DNA of 64,000 nucleotides, from positions 310,001 through 374,000 of the forward strand of contig NZ_JACHWM010000002.1 in the NCBI RefSeq assembly GCF_014191355.1, read 5' to 3'. The notes beneath the pieces were generated by a model. That model saw only the letters and a list, made by a program, of their open reading frames with translations, was not told the DNA's origin and ran no database searches. This DNA comes from Methylobacterium sp. R2-1. Its GTDB lineage: Bacteria; Pseudomonadota; Alphaproteobacteria; Rhizobiales; Beijerinckiaceae. The position numbers and the translations under genes are program-made. Below are positions 3,429 through 29,662 of the stretch, piece after piece. Numbering within the stretch: position 1 is the first letter of the stretch; each line of letters starts with the position of its first letter.

Positions 3429-4115
3429 TTACGCCTCGGAGCAAGCGATCAGGGCCGAGGCGGAGAGCGTCTGGCCATCGCGCTCGACCACCGATTGGAA
3501 CTCACCGGTCTTCGGGTCGCGGATGCGCAGCTCACCGGTGACGATGCCGAAATGCGCGCCGTGCAGGTGCAGGCGGCCCGCCTCGACGGCCTCGCGGATG
3601 AAGTCGAAGGTCATCAGGTTCTCGAGGCTCTGCGCGACCATCGCGTATTCGAGGCGCGTGAGGAAACCCTCCTTGTCCGGGGTGTCGCCGGATTCGATGA
3701 GCTTCTTCTTCGCCGGCTCGACCAGCGAGACCCAGCGGCCGATGAAGTTGCCGGACGAGAGCGGGTCCGCGCCGAACCCGGCGGCCTTGATGCCGCCGCA
3801 GGTGGCGTGGCCGAGCACGACGATGTGCTTCACCTTCAGGGCCTGGACCGCGAACTCGATCGCCGAGGAGGTGCCGTGATAGGCGGTGTCGCGCTCGGCG
3901 GGCGGCACGATGTTGGCCACGTTGCGGATCGTGAAGATCTGGCCCGGCCCCGTATCGAAGATCACCTCCGGGGCGACGCGGCTGTCACAGCAGCCGATCA
4001 GCAGGACTTCAGGCTCCTGGCCTTCCTTGCCGAGCGTCTCGTACTTGCGCCGCTCGCTCGGGAGCCGCTCGCCGAGAAAGCTGCGATAGCCATCGGTGAG
4101 AACCTGGGGGAACAT
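3429..4115 (-). CDS. Beta-class carbonic anhydrase
   Basis: A 228-residue enzyme interconverting CO2 and bicarbonate. Zinc ligands are visible: C42 in CCDSRV (with the D44/R46 dyad), then H103 and C106 in HATCGG. The length is normal for the bacterial family. ATG 4115 is chosen because AAAGGA at 4126-4131 is a good ribosome site; the frame runs further upstream but without protein character. In a methylotroph such an enzyme would supply bicarbonate for carboxylations; that role is inferred. It is monocistronic and ends in its own terminator. Confidence 0.95.
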   Translation of the reverse strand: MFPQVLTDGYRSFLGERLPSERRKYETLGKEGQEPEVLLIGCCDSRVAPEVIFDTGPGQIFTIRNVANIVPPAERDTAYHGTSSAIEFAVQALKVKHIVVLGHATCGGIKAAGFGADPLSSGNFIGRWVSLVEPAKKKLIESGDTPDKEGFLTRLEYAMVAQSLENLMTFDFIREAVEAGRLHLHGAHFGIVTGELRIRDPKTGEFQSVVERDGQTLSASALIACSEA

Positions 4116-4378
4116 GGTCGGTGATCCTTTCATCCTTACGGTCGTGGGACGCGCTAACCAAACGATCTGATCATTGAAATCCATCCCAGCCCGCAGATGC
4201 GCTTGCGCACATCCTGTGCGCCGGGCGTGATCACATTGCGCGATTCCACGGCGTGATCCCACGGCACGCTCGAAAGAGCCGGATCGGAAACGATCCTGCC
4301 GCCGACCAGTCAAGCACGCCAGGCCTCCATGCGGCGGCGCGCCGCCGCGGATTGCGGCGGGCGGCTCGCGTGGAAGGC

Positions 4379-4903
4379 TCAAGCGTTCTGCCAGTCGAGG
4401 CGGACGGGCTGGTCCGGAACGTCGCCGGACGCGATTCGTTGCGCCAACTCGGCCAATCCGGCGGGTTCGATGCGCTCGGCCGAGGCCGCGAGTTCGGCGA
4501 GCGGCCACCAGCGGGTGCCGCGCACGGGGTTGTCCTCGGTCTCGGCGAGCCGGCTCGTATCGACGACGTCGCTGGCGAGCCGGACCACGAAGTAGCGTTC
4601 GCGGGCCCAGCGCGGCTTGCGGAACAGGTGGAACGGGCCGTCGCAGACGGCGACGCAGGGGCCGAGCTCCACCTCGGCGACGCCGATCTCCTCCGAGAGT
4701 TCGCGCCGGCACGCGTCCTCGTGGCTCTCACCCGGCTCCAGCCCGCCGCCGGGCATGAACCAGAAGCCGAGGGCCTCAGGGTTGGCCGGATCGATCGGGC
4801 GGACGGCCTCGTACTCGATCAGCAGTAGGCGGTTCGATGGGTCGAAGACCAGGGCGCGGGCGATGTCGCGCGTCGGCAGGTCCGCGTCAGGGCGGTCGGT
4901 CAC
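4379..4903 (-). CDS. Nudix hydrolase
   Basis: This 174-residue protein carries a complete Nudix box: G53-x5-E59-x7-R67-E-L-x-E71-E72-x-G74. Such enzymes hydrolyse nucleoside diphosphates linked to another moiety; the substrate cannot be read from sequence. It follows the DUF429 gene after 12 bases on the same strand, so the two are probably co-transcribed. The 263 bp between its stop and the carbonic anhydrase start hold no recognisable gene. Confidence 0.88.
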   Translation of the reverse strand: MTDRPDADLPTRDIARALVFDPSNRLLLIEYEAVRPIDPANPEALGFWFMPGGGLEPGESHEDACRRELSEEIGVAEVELGPCVAVCDGPFHLFRKPRWARERYFVVRLASDVVDTSRLAETEDNPVRGTRWWPLAELAASAERIEPAGLAELAQRIASGDVPDQPVRLDWQNA

Positions 4904-25401: not shown

Positions 25402-25854
25402 TCAGGCCCAGGATTCGGCGGCGGCGGCATCGGCCTCCGTCGCCGCGACCCAGCCGCCGGTGGTGCCGTCGGCGAGGTGTTCGCGCTTCCAGAACGGGGC
25501 GCGGGTCTTGAGGTAATCCATCAGGAAGTCGGCCGCGGCGAAGGCCGCCTTGCGGTGGGGCGAGGCGGTGACGACGAGGACGATGCCCTCGCCCGGCCGC
25601 ACCAGCCCGTGGCGGTGGATCACCCGAAGGGCCTGGACCGGCCAGCGGGTACGCGTCTCCTCCACCACCCGAGCGATCTCGGCCTCGGCCATGCCGGGGT
25701 AATGCTCCAGCTCCAGCGCAGCGAGCCGCCCCGCCTCGTCGCGGCATAGGCCGGAGAAGGTCACCACCGCGCCCGCCCGGCCGGCCAGCTCCGCCTCGAT
25801 CCGGGCGATCTCGGCGGCGGTGTCGAAGGGCTCGGACTGGATGCTGACCGTCAT
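25402..25854 (-). CDS. moaE: Molybdopterin synthase catalytic subunit
   Basis: The 150-residue protein matches MoaE throughout: AVVTFSGLCRDE at the N-terminal fold, LELEHYPGMAE, IHRHGLVRPGE, and the C-terminal FWKREHLADG region containing the active-site lysines. It converts precursor Z to molybdopterin together with MoaD, which is not encoded in the window. Methylotrophs of this group need molybdenum cofactor for formate and other dehydrogenases. Confidence 0.93.
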   Translation of the reverse strand: MTVSIQSEPFDTAAEIARIEAELAGRAGAVVTFSGLCRDEAGRLAALELEHYPGMAEAEIARVVEETRTRWPVQALRVIHRHGLVRPGEGIVLVVTASPHRKAAFAAADFLMDYLKTRAPFWKREHLADGTTGGWVAATEADAAAAESWA

Positions 25855-26003
25855 GACCGTCTCTTCGGGAACGCGTACGCGGCGGCGACGGGTCGGGGCG
25901 AGCGTTTTCGCGCAAGCCTGTTACCCCATTTGCCCGTGGGCCTATATGGCTCAAGAATAGGACCGCGCCACCGGCGCCGTTTCGAAGAACAGCGAGCCGC
26001 GAC

Positions 26004-27023
26004 GTGACGCCCGACCTGATCCTGCCCTACGACGGCATCCTGCCCGTCTTCGCCAGCCGACCCGTCTGGTGCGGGCGCGCCAGTACCGTGATCGGCGCCG
26101 CCACCCTCGGGTCCCAGGCCTGGCTCGGCGACGACAGCGTGATCCGCAGCGATGGGCAACCGATCACCGCAGGCGACCGCTTCTGGCTCGGCGCGCGCTC
26201 CACCGTCCACATCGCCACCGAATCGCTGCCGACCCATATCGGCGACCGGGTCACGGTCGGCCGCAACGCGGTGGTGCATGCCTGCACCGTGGGCTCGGAC
26301 GTGGTGATCGAGGACGACGCGATCATCCTCGACGGGGCGACCGTCGGCGACAACGTGCTGATCGAGGCGGGTGCCACCATCTTCCCCCGCTCGAATCTCG
26401 AAAGCGGCTTCGCCTATGGCGGCAACCCGGCCAAGCGCCTGCGCCCGGTGACGCCGGAGGAACTGGCCGAGCGGGCCGAGCGCCTGCGCGAGGCGGCAGG
26501 CGAGGGGGCGAGCCCGCCCGAGACCGTGCCGCCCGAGACCGAGGCCAGCGTGTTCGTGGCCCGCACCGCCCGGCTCTCCGGTCGCATCGCGCTGGGCGCC
26601 GGATCGACGGTGCTGTTCTCCTGCGAACTCGCCGCGGAGGTCGGTCCGATCGTGGTGGGGGCCGACACCAATATCCAGGACAATACGGTGATCCGCAGCC
26701 GCGGCGAGGGCGTGGTGATCGGGCGCGACACCACGATCGGCCACAACGTCCGCATGGCCGATTGCCGGATCGGCGCCCGCAGCCTCATCGGCATCGGCTC
26801 GGTGCTGGCGCCGGGCACGGTGGTGGCCGACGACGTGATGCTGGCCGGCGGCTCGACCACCGATCCGGGTCAGTTGCTGGAGGGCGGCCACCTTTGGGGC
26901 GGGCGCCCGGCCCGCATTCTCGGGACGCTGGACCCAAAGAAGCGCGCCTTGATGAGCCACATCGTCGAGGGCTATTGCCGGCACGGGCGCGAGTACCGGC
27001 TGCTGCAAGAGCAGGAATCCTGA
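26004..27023 (+). CDS. Two-domain gamma-carbonic-anhydrase-like hexapeptide protein
   Basis: A 339-residue protein with two left-handed beta-helix domains (about 20-140 and 180-310) joined by a helix. Each resembles gamma-carbonic anhydrases (YrdA/PaaY type). The three zinc histidines are split. The N-terminal domain keeps the first (STVH, H69) and third (VVHAC, H92) but has R87 for the second. The C-terminal domain has only the second (TIGHN, H247), with R231 and A252/D253 at the other positions. It could be an active fused enzyme or a non-catalytic scaffold. The start is GTG 26004. Confidence 0.8.
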   Translation: MTPDLILPYDGILPVFASRPVWCGRASTVIGAATLGSQAWLGDDSVIRSDGQPITAGDRFWLGARSTVHIATESLPTHIGDRVTVGRNAVVHACTVGSDVVIEDDAIILDGATVGDNVLIEAGATIFPRSNLESGFAYGGNPAKRLRPVTPEELAERAERLREAAGEGASPPETVPPETEASVFVARTARLSGRIALGAGSTVLFSCELAAEVGPIVVGADTNIQDNTVIRSRGEGVVIGRDTTIGHNVRMADCRIGARSLIGIGSVLAPGTVVADDVMLAGGSTTDPGQLLEGGHLWGGRPARILGTLDPKKRALMSHIVEGYCRHGREYRLLQEQES

Positions 27024-27107
27024 CACCAACAGACCCGAAACGGGTGCGATGACGCGGGCCTGCCTGCGTCGTCCGATGCGAGCTGTCCTTCGGAGGGCGA
27101 CCTTACC

Positions 27108-28100
27108 ATGATGAGCCGTCTCTCGATGCTGACGCTCGGCGGCCGGCAACGGTTCGACGATCTCAGCGAGCAGGAGATCCTGGCGCTCGCGATCGGGTCC
27201 GAGGAAGAGGACGGCCAGATCTACCGCGCCTATGCCGGGCGCCTGCGCGGCGATTATCCCCGTTCGGCCGCCCTGTTCGACGCGATGGCGGACGCCGAGG
27301 ACGAGCACCGCCGTCGCCTGATCGAGCGCTACAAGCAGCGCTTCGGCGACTTCATCATCCCGATCCGGCGCGAGCACATCGCGGGCTATTACAGCCGCAA
27401 GCCGGTCTGGCTGATGCGCAATCTCGGGCTCGACCGCGTCCGGGTGGAGGCCGCCGCGATGGAGCGGCAGGCGCGCGACTTCTACCTCGCCGCCGCCCGG
27501 CGCTCGACCGACGCCGACACGCGCCGCCTGCTCGGCGACCTCGCCGCGGCGGAGAGCGCGCACGAGCGGACGGCCGAGGCGCTGAGCGAGCAGCATCTCG
27601 GCGGAACCGTCCGCGACGAGGAAGACGCGGTGGCCCACCGCCAGTTCGTCCTGACCTGGGTCCAGCCGGGACTCGCCGGGCTGATGGACGGCTCGGTCTC
27701 GACGCTCGCCCCGATCTTCGCCACCGCCTTCGCCACGCAGAACCCGTGGACGACCTTCCTCGTCGGCCTCTCGGCCTCGATCGGCGCGGGCATCTCGATG
27801 GGCTTCACCGAGGCCGCGCACGACGACGGCAAGATTTCCGGGCGCGGCTCACCGCTGAAACGCGGCCTCGCCTCCGGCGTGATGACCGCTTTGGGCGGCC
27901 TCGGCCACGCGCTGCCCTACCTGATCCCGAACTTCTGGCTGGCGACGAGCATCGCCTTCGCCGTGGTCTTCGCCGAGCTCTGGGCCATCGTCTGGATCCA
28001 GAACCGCTACATGGAGACGCCCTTCCTGCGGGCCGCCTTCCAGATCGTGCTCGGCGGCTCCCTCGTGCTCGCGGCCGGCATCCTCATCGGCGGGGCCTGA
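27108..28100 (+). CDS. mbfA: Membrane-bound ferritin-like iron exporter (erythrin-VIT1 type, MbfA)
   Basis: A 330-residue fusion. Residues 15-165 form a ferritin-like four-helix domain with metal ligands in SEEEDGQIY, AEDEHRR and AAESAHER (ExxH motifs). Residues 175-330 form a VIT1/CCC1-like membrane domain (GLMDGSVSTLAPIF, then SIGAGISMGFTEAA). In Agrobacterium and Bradyrhizobium, MbfA exports iron and protects against iron and peroxide stress under Irr control. I see no clear Irr (ICE) motif in the 85-bp upstream gap. It converges with the DsbA-like gene. Confidence 0.88.
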   Translation: MMSRLSMLTLGGRQRFDDLSEQEILALAIGSEEEDGQIYRAYAGRLRGDYPRSAALFDAMADAEDEHRRRLIERYKQRFGDFIIPIRREHIAGYYSRKPVWLMRNLGLDRVRVEAAAMERQARDFYLAAARRSTDADTRRLLGDLAAAESAHERTAEALSEQHLGGTVRDEEDAVAHRQFVLTWVQPGLAGLMDGSVSTLAPIFATAFATQNPWTTFLVGLSASIGAGISMGFTEAAHDDGKISGRGSPLKRGLASGVMTALGGLGHALPYLIPNFWLATSIAFAVVFAELWAIVWIQNRYMETPFLRAAFQIVLGGSLVLAAGILIGGA

Positions 28101-29027: not shown

Positions 29028-29285
29028 ATGCACGTCTCGGTGACAGACGCCAAGGGACAGTTGACCGACTTGGTCCGACGCGCGGAAGCAGGAGAGGAAA
29101 TCATCCTGACGCGGCACGGCCATCCCGCTGTTCGCCTCGAGCCCGTTAGGCCCATGCCGGATCGAGAGACACGACGGGCCGTCCTGAACGCCGTCAGGAA
29201 GTCCGCAGCGGCAAAACCATCGATGGGACCGAGTGCGGAGCGGAGTCAGGACTTCCTCTACGGCGAGGATGGATTACCCGAGTGA
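29028..29285 (+). CDS. Phd/YefM-family antitoxin
   Basis: An 85-residue protein. MHVSVTDAKGQLTDLVRRAEAGEEIILTRHG is not quoted in full; residues 1-10 and the EEIILTRHGHPAVRL block (about 24-38) are the diagnostic Phd fold. The C-terminal half is less ordered and would wrap the toxin. It binds DNA as a dimer and neutralises the PIN toxin that overlaps it by 4 bases. ATG 29028 lies behind GGGGCG. The pair looks somewhat less GC-rich than its flanks. Confidence 0.9.
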   Translation: MHVSVTDAKGQLTDLVRRAEAGEEIILTRHGHPAVRLEPVRPMPDRETRRAVLNAVRKSAAAKPSMGPSAERSQDFLYGEDGLPE

Positions 29286-29662
29286 TCGTGGTCGATACCT
29301 CGGCCTTGATGGCGATCCTCCTCGGTGAAGCGGAAGCGGATCGATGCGCCGACGTTCTGGAAGCAGAGGATAAGATCCTCATCTCAGCCGGGACAATGGC
29401 CGAAGCCTTGATCGTTGCTTTGCGACGGAATCGCAGGGACGAGATGGAAAAACTCATCGCCGGGCTCGGCTTCGAGATTATCGGCGTGACCGCTGCTACC
29501 GTGCAGCTTGTCGTTCAAGCCTACGGGACATGGGGTAAAGGCGTTCATCCCGCGGCTCTGAATTTTGGTGACTGCTTTGCCTACGCTCTGGCGAAGGAGA
29601 GAGGCTGCCGGCTGCTCTATGTCGGCGAGGATTTTCCACGGACCGATCTGGAACGTGCATGA
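29282..29662 (+). CDS. VapC-family PIN-domain toxin (endoribonuclease)
   Basis: A 126-residue PIN protein with acidic catalytic residues D5 (VVDTSAL), E41 (MAEALI), D97 (NFGDCFAYALAK) and D117 (YVGEDF). Such toxins cleave tRNA or rRNA when the antitoxin is degraded. The start is GTG 29282 in a GTGA overlap with the antitoxin stop. All catalytic residues are intact, so the module should be functional. Confidence 0.92.
   Translation: MIVVDTSALMAILLGEAEADRCADVLEAEDKILISAGTMAEALIVALRRNRRDEMEKLIAGLGFEIIGVTAATVQLVVQAYGTWGKGVHPAALNFGDCFAYALAKERGCRLLYVGEDFPRTDLERA

Follow-up and report, generated by a model that had tools for sequence, protein, structure and literature searches.

A fused two-domain gamma-carbonic-anhydrase-like protein of Methylobacterium whose halves keep complementary parts of one putative active site

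The window analysed here is a stretch of 64,000 nucleotides from Methylobacterium sp. R2-1 (NZ_JACHWM010000002.1, positions 310,001 to 374,000), and all coordinates refer to it. Positions 26004 to 27023 (+, stop included) hold a gene with a GTG start that encodes a fused two-domain protein of 339 amino acids resembling gamma-carbonic anhydrases (gamma-CAs). Its orthologues in four congeners have the same beginning, with GTG or ATG as start codon, and the nearest named orthologue among those fetched is that of Methylorubrum thiocyanatum (L203, 96% identity). The neighbouring genes encode MoaE, an AI-2E transporter and MbfA: moaE (25402-25854, -) is divergent from the fused gene, and the iron exporter gene mbfA (27108-28100, +; 557.7 bits at a cut-off of 450) lies 3' of it. 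Of 133 loci examined, with flanks of at most a few kb, 106 have the MoaE gene next to the fused gene; all 26 loci from outside the genus lack this neighbour. Scanning 25800-27200 for promoters and terminators yielded nothing. Elsewhere in the window, a pair of a Phd-type antitoxin and a PIN-domain toxin is located at 29028-29662 (+).

The protein divides into two halves, as concluded from domain matches and predicted models. The N half (residues 1-165; 26004 to 26498, +) consists of a left-handed beta-helix followed by a short helix (151-165 in the model), and the C half (residues 183-339; 26550 to 27020, +) of a left-handed beta-helix followed by a long C-terminal helix (311-338 in the model). 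They are joined by a linker (residues 166-182; 26499 to 26549, +) taken from the predicted model, in which residues 167-183 have a pLDDT below 50. The best NCBIfam model for the whole protein is gamma carbonic anhydrase (NF050158) with 171.1 bits, which is under the curated cut-off of 250. Matches in 13 of 14 control genomes miss this cut-off as well, so the model is a narrow one. Each half is also matched separately by NF050158 (C half 96.6 bits, N half 77.5 bits), and the top PDB sequence matches of the fused protein are gamma-CAs. The predicted models contain the left-handed beta-helix and the C-terminal helix of the gamma class, with structure matches to gamma-CAs up to Z 26.1 for the N half and Z 14.9 for the C half.

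For the window protein itself, prediction gave a model of mediocre quality (pLDDT 70.1, pTM 0.68; 45 sequences). For a Pseudorhodoplanes relative the AlphaFold2 model reaches pLDDT 83.7 and pTM 0.87 (66 sequences); its C half is less sure, with means of 58-91 over blocks of 10 residues from residue 191 to 340. The pTM of 0.87 suggests that the halves of this model are placed definitely relative to each other, despite the lower pLDDT of the C half. Among the best 50 structure matches of each model, one PDB entry, 3c8v ('putative acetyltransferase', Desulfovibrio desulfuricans G20), is the sole one aligned over approximately 290 residues spanning both halves: it ranks first for the window protein (Z 20.2, rmsd 3.6, 292 residues) and 34th for the Pseudorhodoplanes model (Z 22.0, rmsd 4.0, 290 residues). 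The likeness, which was assessed by fold overlay alone, comes with 16% identity, and 3c8v is absent from the PDB sequence matches listed. Five other structure matches of the window model start in the N half and end in the C half, with 158 to 179 residues aligned.

The fused protein is common in the genus, where 108 of 111 genomes carry a full-length copy; in the remaining ones the copy is cut by a contig end (G001) or none was found (G078, which is 70% complete, and G110). Since it is this widespread, the split histidine pattern described below is not a matter of chance. Outside the genus the fused protein occurs in at least 7 of 273 genomes in the family scan (one copy cut by a contig end), at least 7 of 291 in the order scan and at least 4 of 287 in the class scan; all scan counts are lower bounds because thresholds differ and the number of candidates scored per genome was 19 for the genus and 5 to 7 for the larger scans. 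The phylum scan, subject to the same bounds, found it in none of the 392 genomes outside the genus, and among all 398 genomes full-length matches were confined to six congeners (E up to 1e-42). Sixteen single-domain matches in long open frames, from the order, class and phylum scans, hold one domain each and show no fusion.

Active sites of gamma-CAs are located at the interfaces between subunits. In Cam one monomer binds the metal through H81 and H122, and the adjacent monomer contributes H117 (PMC4519908). The ligands in gamma-CaCA are H64 and H87 from one chain and H82 from its partner, together with Tyr159 of the C-terminal helix (PMC12648627). In the fused protein, residues 69, 87, 92, 231, 247 and 252 are H, R, H, R, H and A. 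Thus the N half has H69 (26208 to 26210, +) and H92 (26277 to 26279, +) as equivalents of Cam H81 and H122, with R87 (26262 to 26264, +) at the place of H117. The C half has H247 (26742 to 26744, +) as equivalent of H117, with R231 (26694 to 26696, +) and A252 (26757 to 26759, +) at the places of H81 and H122. This agrees with the initial annotation, which had described an N-terminal domain with the first and third zinc histidines and a C-terminal domain with the second one. The spacing of residues 69, 87 and 92 (18+5) equals that of the gamma-CaCA ligands H64, H82 and H87 given in PMC12648627.

To describe conservation, 216 retrieved sequences that aligned over more than 250 residues were reduced to 124 non-identical ones. 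These are sequences rather than species, 102 from Methylobacterium/Methylorubrum and 22 from others by our own assignment from locus origins, and one pair shows no differences across query columns 20-270. H69, H92 and H247 are each present in 124/124; independent loss of any of them, the observation that would speak against a joint site, is never seen, down to the most distant fused homologue (L242, 28% identity to the window protein). The same holds for further active-site residues. N halves have the equivalents of Cam R59, D61, H81 and H122 in 124, 124, 124 and 124 of the 124 sequences (R59 and D61 corresponding to the R48-x-D50 motif at 26145 to 26153, +), and C halves have them in 3, 3, 15 and 1, so that His occurs at position 231 in 15/124 and at position 252 in 1/124. 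The opposite is seen for Cam N73, Q75, D76 and H117: their equivalents are kept in all 124 C halves at each position (the first three being N223, Q225 and D226, 26670 to 26681, +) and in 0, 0, 5 and 0 N halves. Y324 of the C-terminal helix (26973 to 26975, +), which we take as the equivalent of the zinc-site Tyr159 of gamma-CaCA, is present in 123/124 C halves, the other row being truncated, in 0 of the 15 N halves read and in 32/32 stand-alone proteins. As a control, 30 of 32 stand-alone gamma-CAs (loci from the order and class scans and not a random sample) keep all eight residues, and the other two differ at the N73 place only, where they have Gln.

Neither half therefore holds three zinc histidines, the N half being without the second and the C half without the first and third. 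As aligned, however, the whole chain contains all three zinc ligands and the equivalents of R59, D61, N73, Q75, D76 and the helix Tyr, split between the halves. For each of the three histidines, the half that keeps it corresponds to the subunit of origin given in the metal-site descriptions of PMC4519908 and PMC12648627. The Tyr is probably supplied by the same neighbour as the third histidine, because the engineered Glu46 and Glu67 of gamma-CaCA, near the two-histidine side, touch the neighbour's His165 (wild-type His158), beside the Tyr, according to PMC12648627.

Some other positions deserve mention. C94 is also unchanged in 124/124 fused sequences. Where zinc-site residues have been replaced in the N half, the new residues are still fairly conserved, namely Trp61 (26184-26186; 105/124) and Arg87 (112/124, His being found there in 0/124), and likewise G63 (122/124). 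One homologue (L118, from order scan genome G456) has the sole C half of 124 with all three zinc histidines, and its position 87 is Ser; it is possibly an intermediate. Judging from this C half and from the His231 kept in 15/124, C-C sites might exist in some homologues.

Conservation was also compared along the edges of the beta-helix prism, where edge b carries R59, D61, H81 and H122 and edge a carries N73, Q75, D76 and H117 (the sides of R59, D61, N73, Q75 and D76 follow from our own by-eye reading of the hexapeptide register). In stand-alone proteins the mean entropy of outward positions is 0.50, 0.64 and 1.25 nats for edges a, b and c. For 15 fused proteins picked for spread the values are 1.13, 0.40 and 1.18 nats in the N half and 0.28, 1.34 and 1.30 nats in the C half. 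The pattern is the same when 123 sequences, all but the truncated row, are weighted (effective number 31.5): 1.02, 0.40 and 1.14 nats for N and 0.33, 1.33 and 1.29 nats for C. Each half therefore holds one interface edge, while the other drifts to the level of edge c, the solvent edge. Edge a of the N half is now charged (0.37 against 0.08 in stand-alone proteins, or 0.30 against 0.06 with one more position), and the charge of the lost edge of the C half has hardly changed (0.26 against 0.27, or 0.27 against 0.20 when each corner is extended by one position). In a covariation analysis between the domains, again with 123 weighted sequences, the expected edge pair is not enriched. The top covarying pairs, 32-327 and 72-327, were considered as evidence for contacts and rejected, as they trace to one change in the tree at position 327.

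Taken together, the sequences point to an obligate, fused pseudo-heterodimer: one chain with one composite metal site, serving CO2/bicarbonate interconversion or bicarbonate binding, for which we estimate a probability of roughly 70%. The N half would provide the 'two-histidine' edge (R48, D50, H69 and H92) and the C half the 'third-histidine' edge (N223, Q225, D226 and H247), plus Y324 from the long terminal helix. The halves would lie side by side like neighbouring subunits of a classical gamma-CA trimer and so rebuild one zinc (or iron) site per chain. The two remaining edges, 'third-histidine' in the N half and 'two-histidine' in the C half, would no longer form sites. That contacts between N and C rebuild a single site had been suggested in the initial annotation, and the idea gains support from the six further complementary active-site positions and from the conservation along whole edges. 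One correction follows by reasoning: if the N halves and the C halves formed separate symmetric rings, contacts would run from N to N and from C to C, and not between N and C. For the site to form, an N half and a C half have to be neighbours in the same ring, the simplest case being the two halves of a single chain. Since neither lost edge resembles a constrained interface, we favour a chain occupying two positions of the ring and dispensing with a third beta-helix; perhaps the fused chain amounts to two thirds of the classical trimer. The contact geometry between N and C, metal binding, catalytic activity and the dispensability of a third subunit are all inferred.

Other arrangements have to be weighed against this composite site. 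The one to which we would give most weight, unlikely as it is, fills the empty slot with a third beta-helix protein. Plant complex I sets an example with a gamma-CA heterotrimer that has one active site, as outlined in PMC7447434 and PMC7567890, and many congeners contain a further single-domain match with approximately 30% identity. In the own genome, however, there is no other gamma-CA-like match above 40 bits, leaving the next matches to the gamma-CA model at 40 bits or less, and neither of the conserved neighbours, MoaE or the AI-2E transporter, is a beta-helix protein. Less probable is an assembly of three chains into an N ring and a C ring (six halves, stacked or side by side), with dead zinc sites and a role as scaffold, binder or acetyltransferase-like protein. 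Classical gamma-CAs are indeed homotrimers according to the descriptions in PMC4519908, PMC5746736 and PMC12648627, and the conserved R87 and G63 indicate that this N edge may still act. Nonetheless, such rings leave unexplained why one complementary residue set is found in 124/124 and why edge a of N and edge b of C are conserved no better than a solvent edge. Lower still we rate rings in which several copies are mixed (N-C-N with C-N-C), where N-C sites would lie between chains instead of within one: these are compatible with the conservation, and some N-C contacts would be active, but they are asymmetric, and C-N and N-N contacts would be left with unconserved edges. That the kept residues are functionless relics of a slowly decaying fusion is barely credible: half of the original active-site positions are gone, but the kept ones are invariant down to 28% identity and most of their counterparts vary.

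Among known systems, the gamma-CA heterotrimer of plant complex I (CA1/CA2/CAL) resembles the proposed composite site in that one of three interfaces has all three histidines and the others are degenerate, with zinc at one of the three interfaces as stated in PMC7447434 and PMC7567890. The fused sequences likewise contain a single complete histidine combination, the rest being degenerate, with L118 as exception. The plant assembly, however, comprises three separate gene products on complex I, whereas here two domains lie in one bacterial chain and a third is not visible. Homotrimers of the CamH type (gamma-CaCA 9QEV, YrdA and PhCamH) share the fold, the residue set and, judged by PMC12648627, the 18+5 histidine spacing; they have both half-sites in each subunit, the fused protein one half-site per domain.

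Dynactin p25/p27 may resemble two thirds of a gamma-CA trimer. Like the halves of the fused protein, they are two left-handed beta-helix proteins, and they are reported as a heterodimer in PMC7649786; dynactin chains are indeed among the structure matches of both models. Unlike the fused protein, they are structural subunits of eukaryotes. A bacterial fused gamma-CA with split sites was not found among the listed titles and abstract openings of open-licence PMC papers. The gamma-CA prototype is described in PMC5746736 as active only as a trimer. If true, a gamma-CA with one chain and one site would uncouple catalysis from threefold symmetry, and mutations could be introduced on one side of the site without touching the other. 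Such a protein would also provide a clean natural example in which a duplication was followed by complementary degeneration of half active sites, and could serve in bacteria as a model of the gamma-CA heterotrimers with a single site in mitochondrial complex I.

Regarding function, the composite site may serve CO2/bicarbonate chemistry or the binding of bicarbonate. The related gamma-CAs gamma-CaCA and YrdA have weak or no activity according to PMC12648627, so we put the chance that the fused protein has carbonic anhydrase activity at about one half. The own genome encodes three beta-CAs, so the fused protein is unlikely to be the sole carbonic anhydrase. One of the three lies in the window, 22 kb from the fused gene, where a beta-carbonic anhydrase domain (PF00484, 159.5 bits) at 3528-4004 is found in the C-terminal part of a 427-residue ORF (3429-4712, -).

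Concerning origin and assembly, a more specific version of the composite-site reading, in which the chain stands in for two classical subunits out of three, works as a monomer with one site and arose once in the Alphaproteobacteria via duplication, fusion and complementary loss of half-sites, is tentative, and we rate it somewhat below even odds. A tree of 74 half-domains places all 21 N halves together, with a support of 100/100. The C halves fall into two groups (17 and 4) among stand-alone proteins and are united in 18% of the bootstrap trees. These sequence groupings fit one old fusion; the C half might have been replaced in the four distant forms. Gene neighbourhoods of distant fused proteins include one directly 3' of genes for MeaB and methylmalonyl-CoA mutase (L241:637-4433), and another between a DAO-type oxidoreductase and an isocitrate/isopropylmalate-type dehydrogenase (L239:1315-5835).
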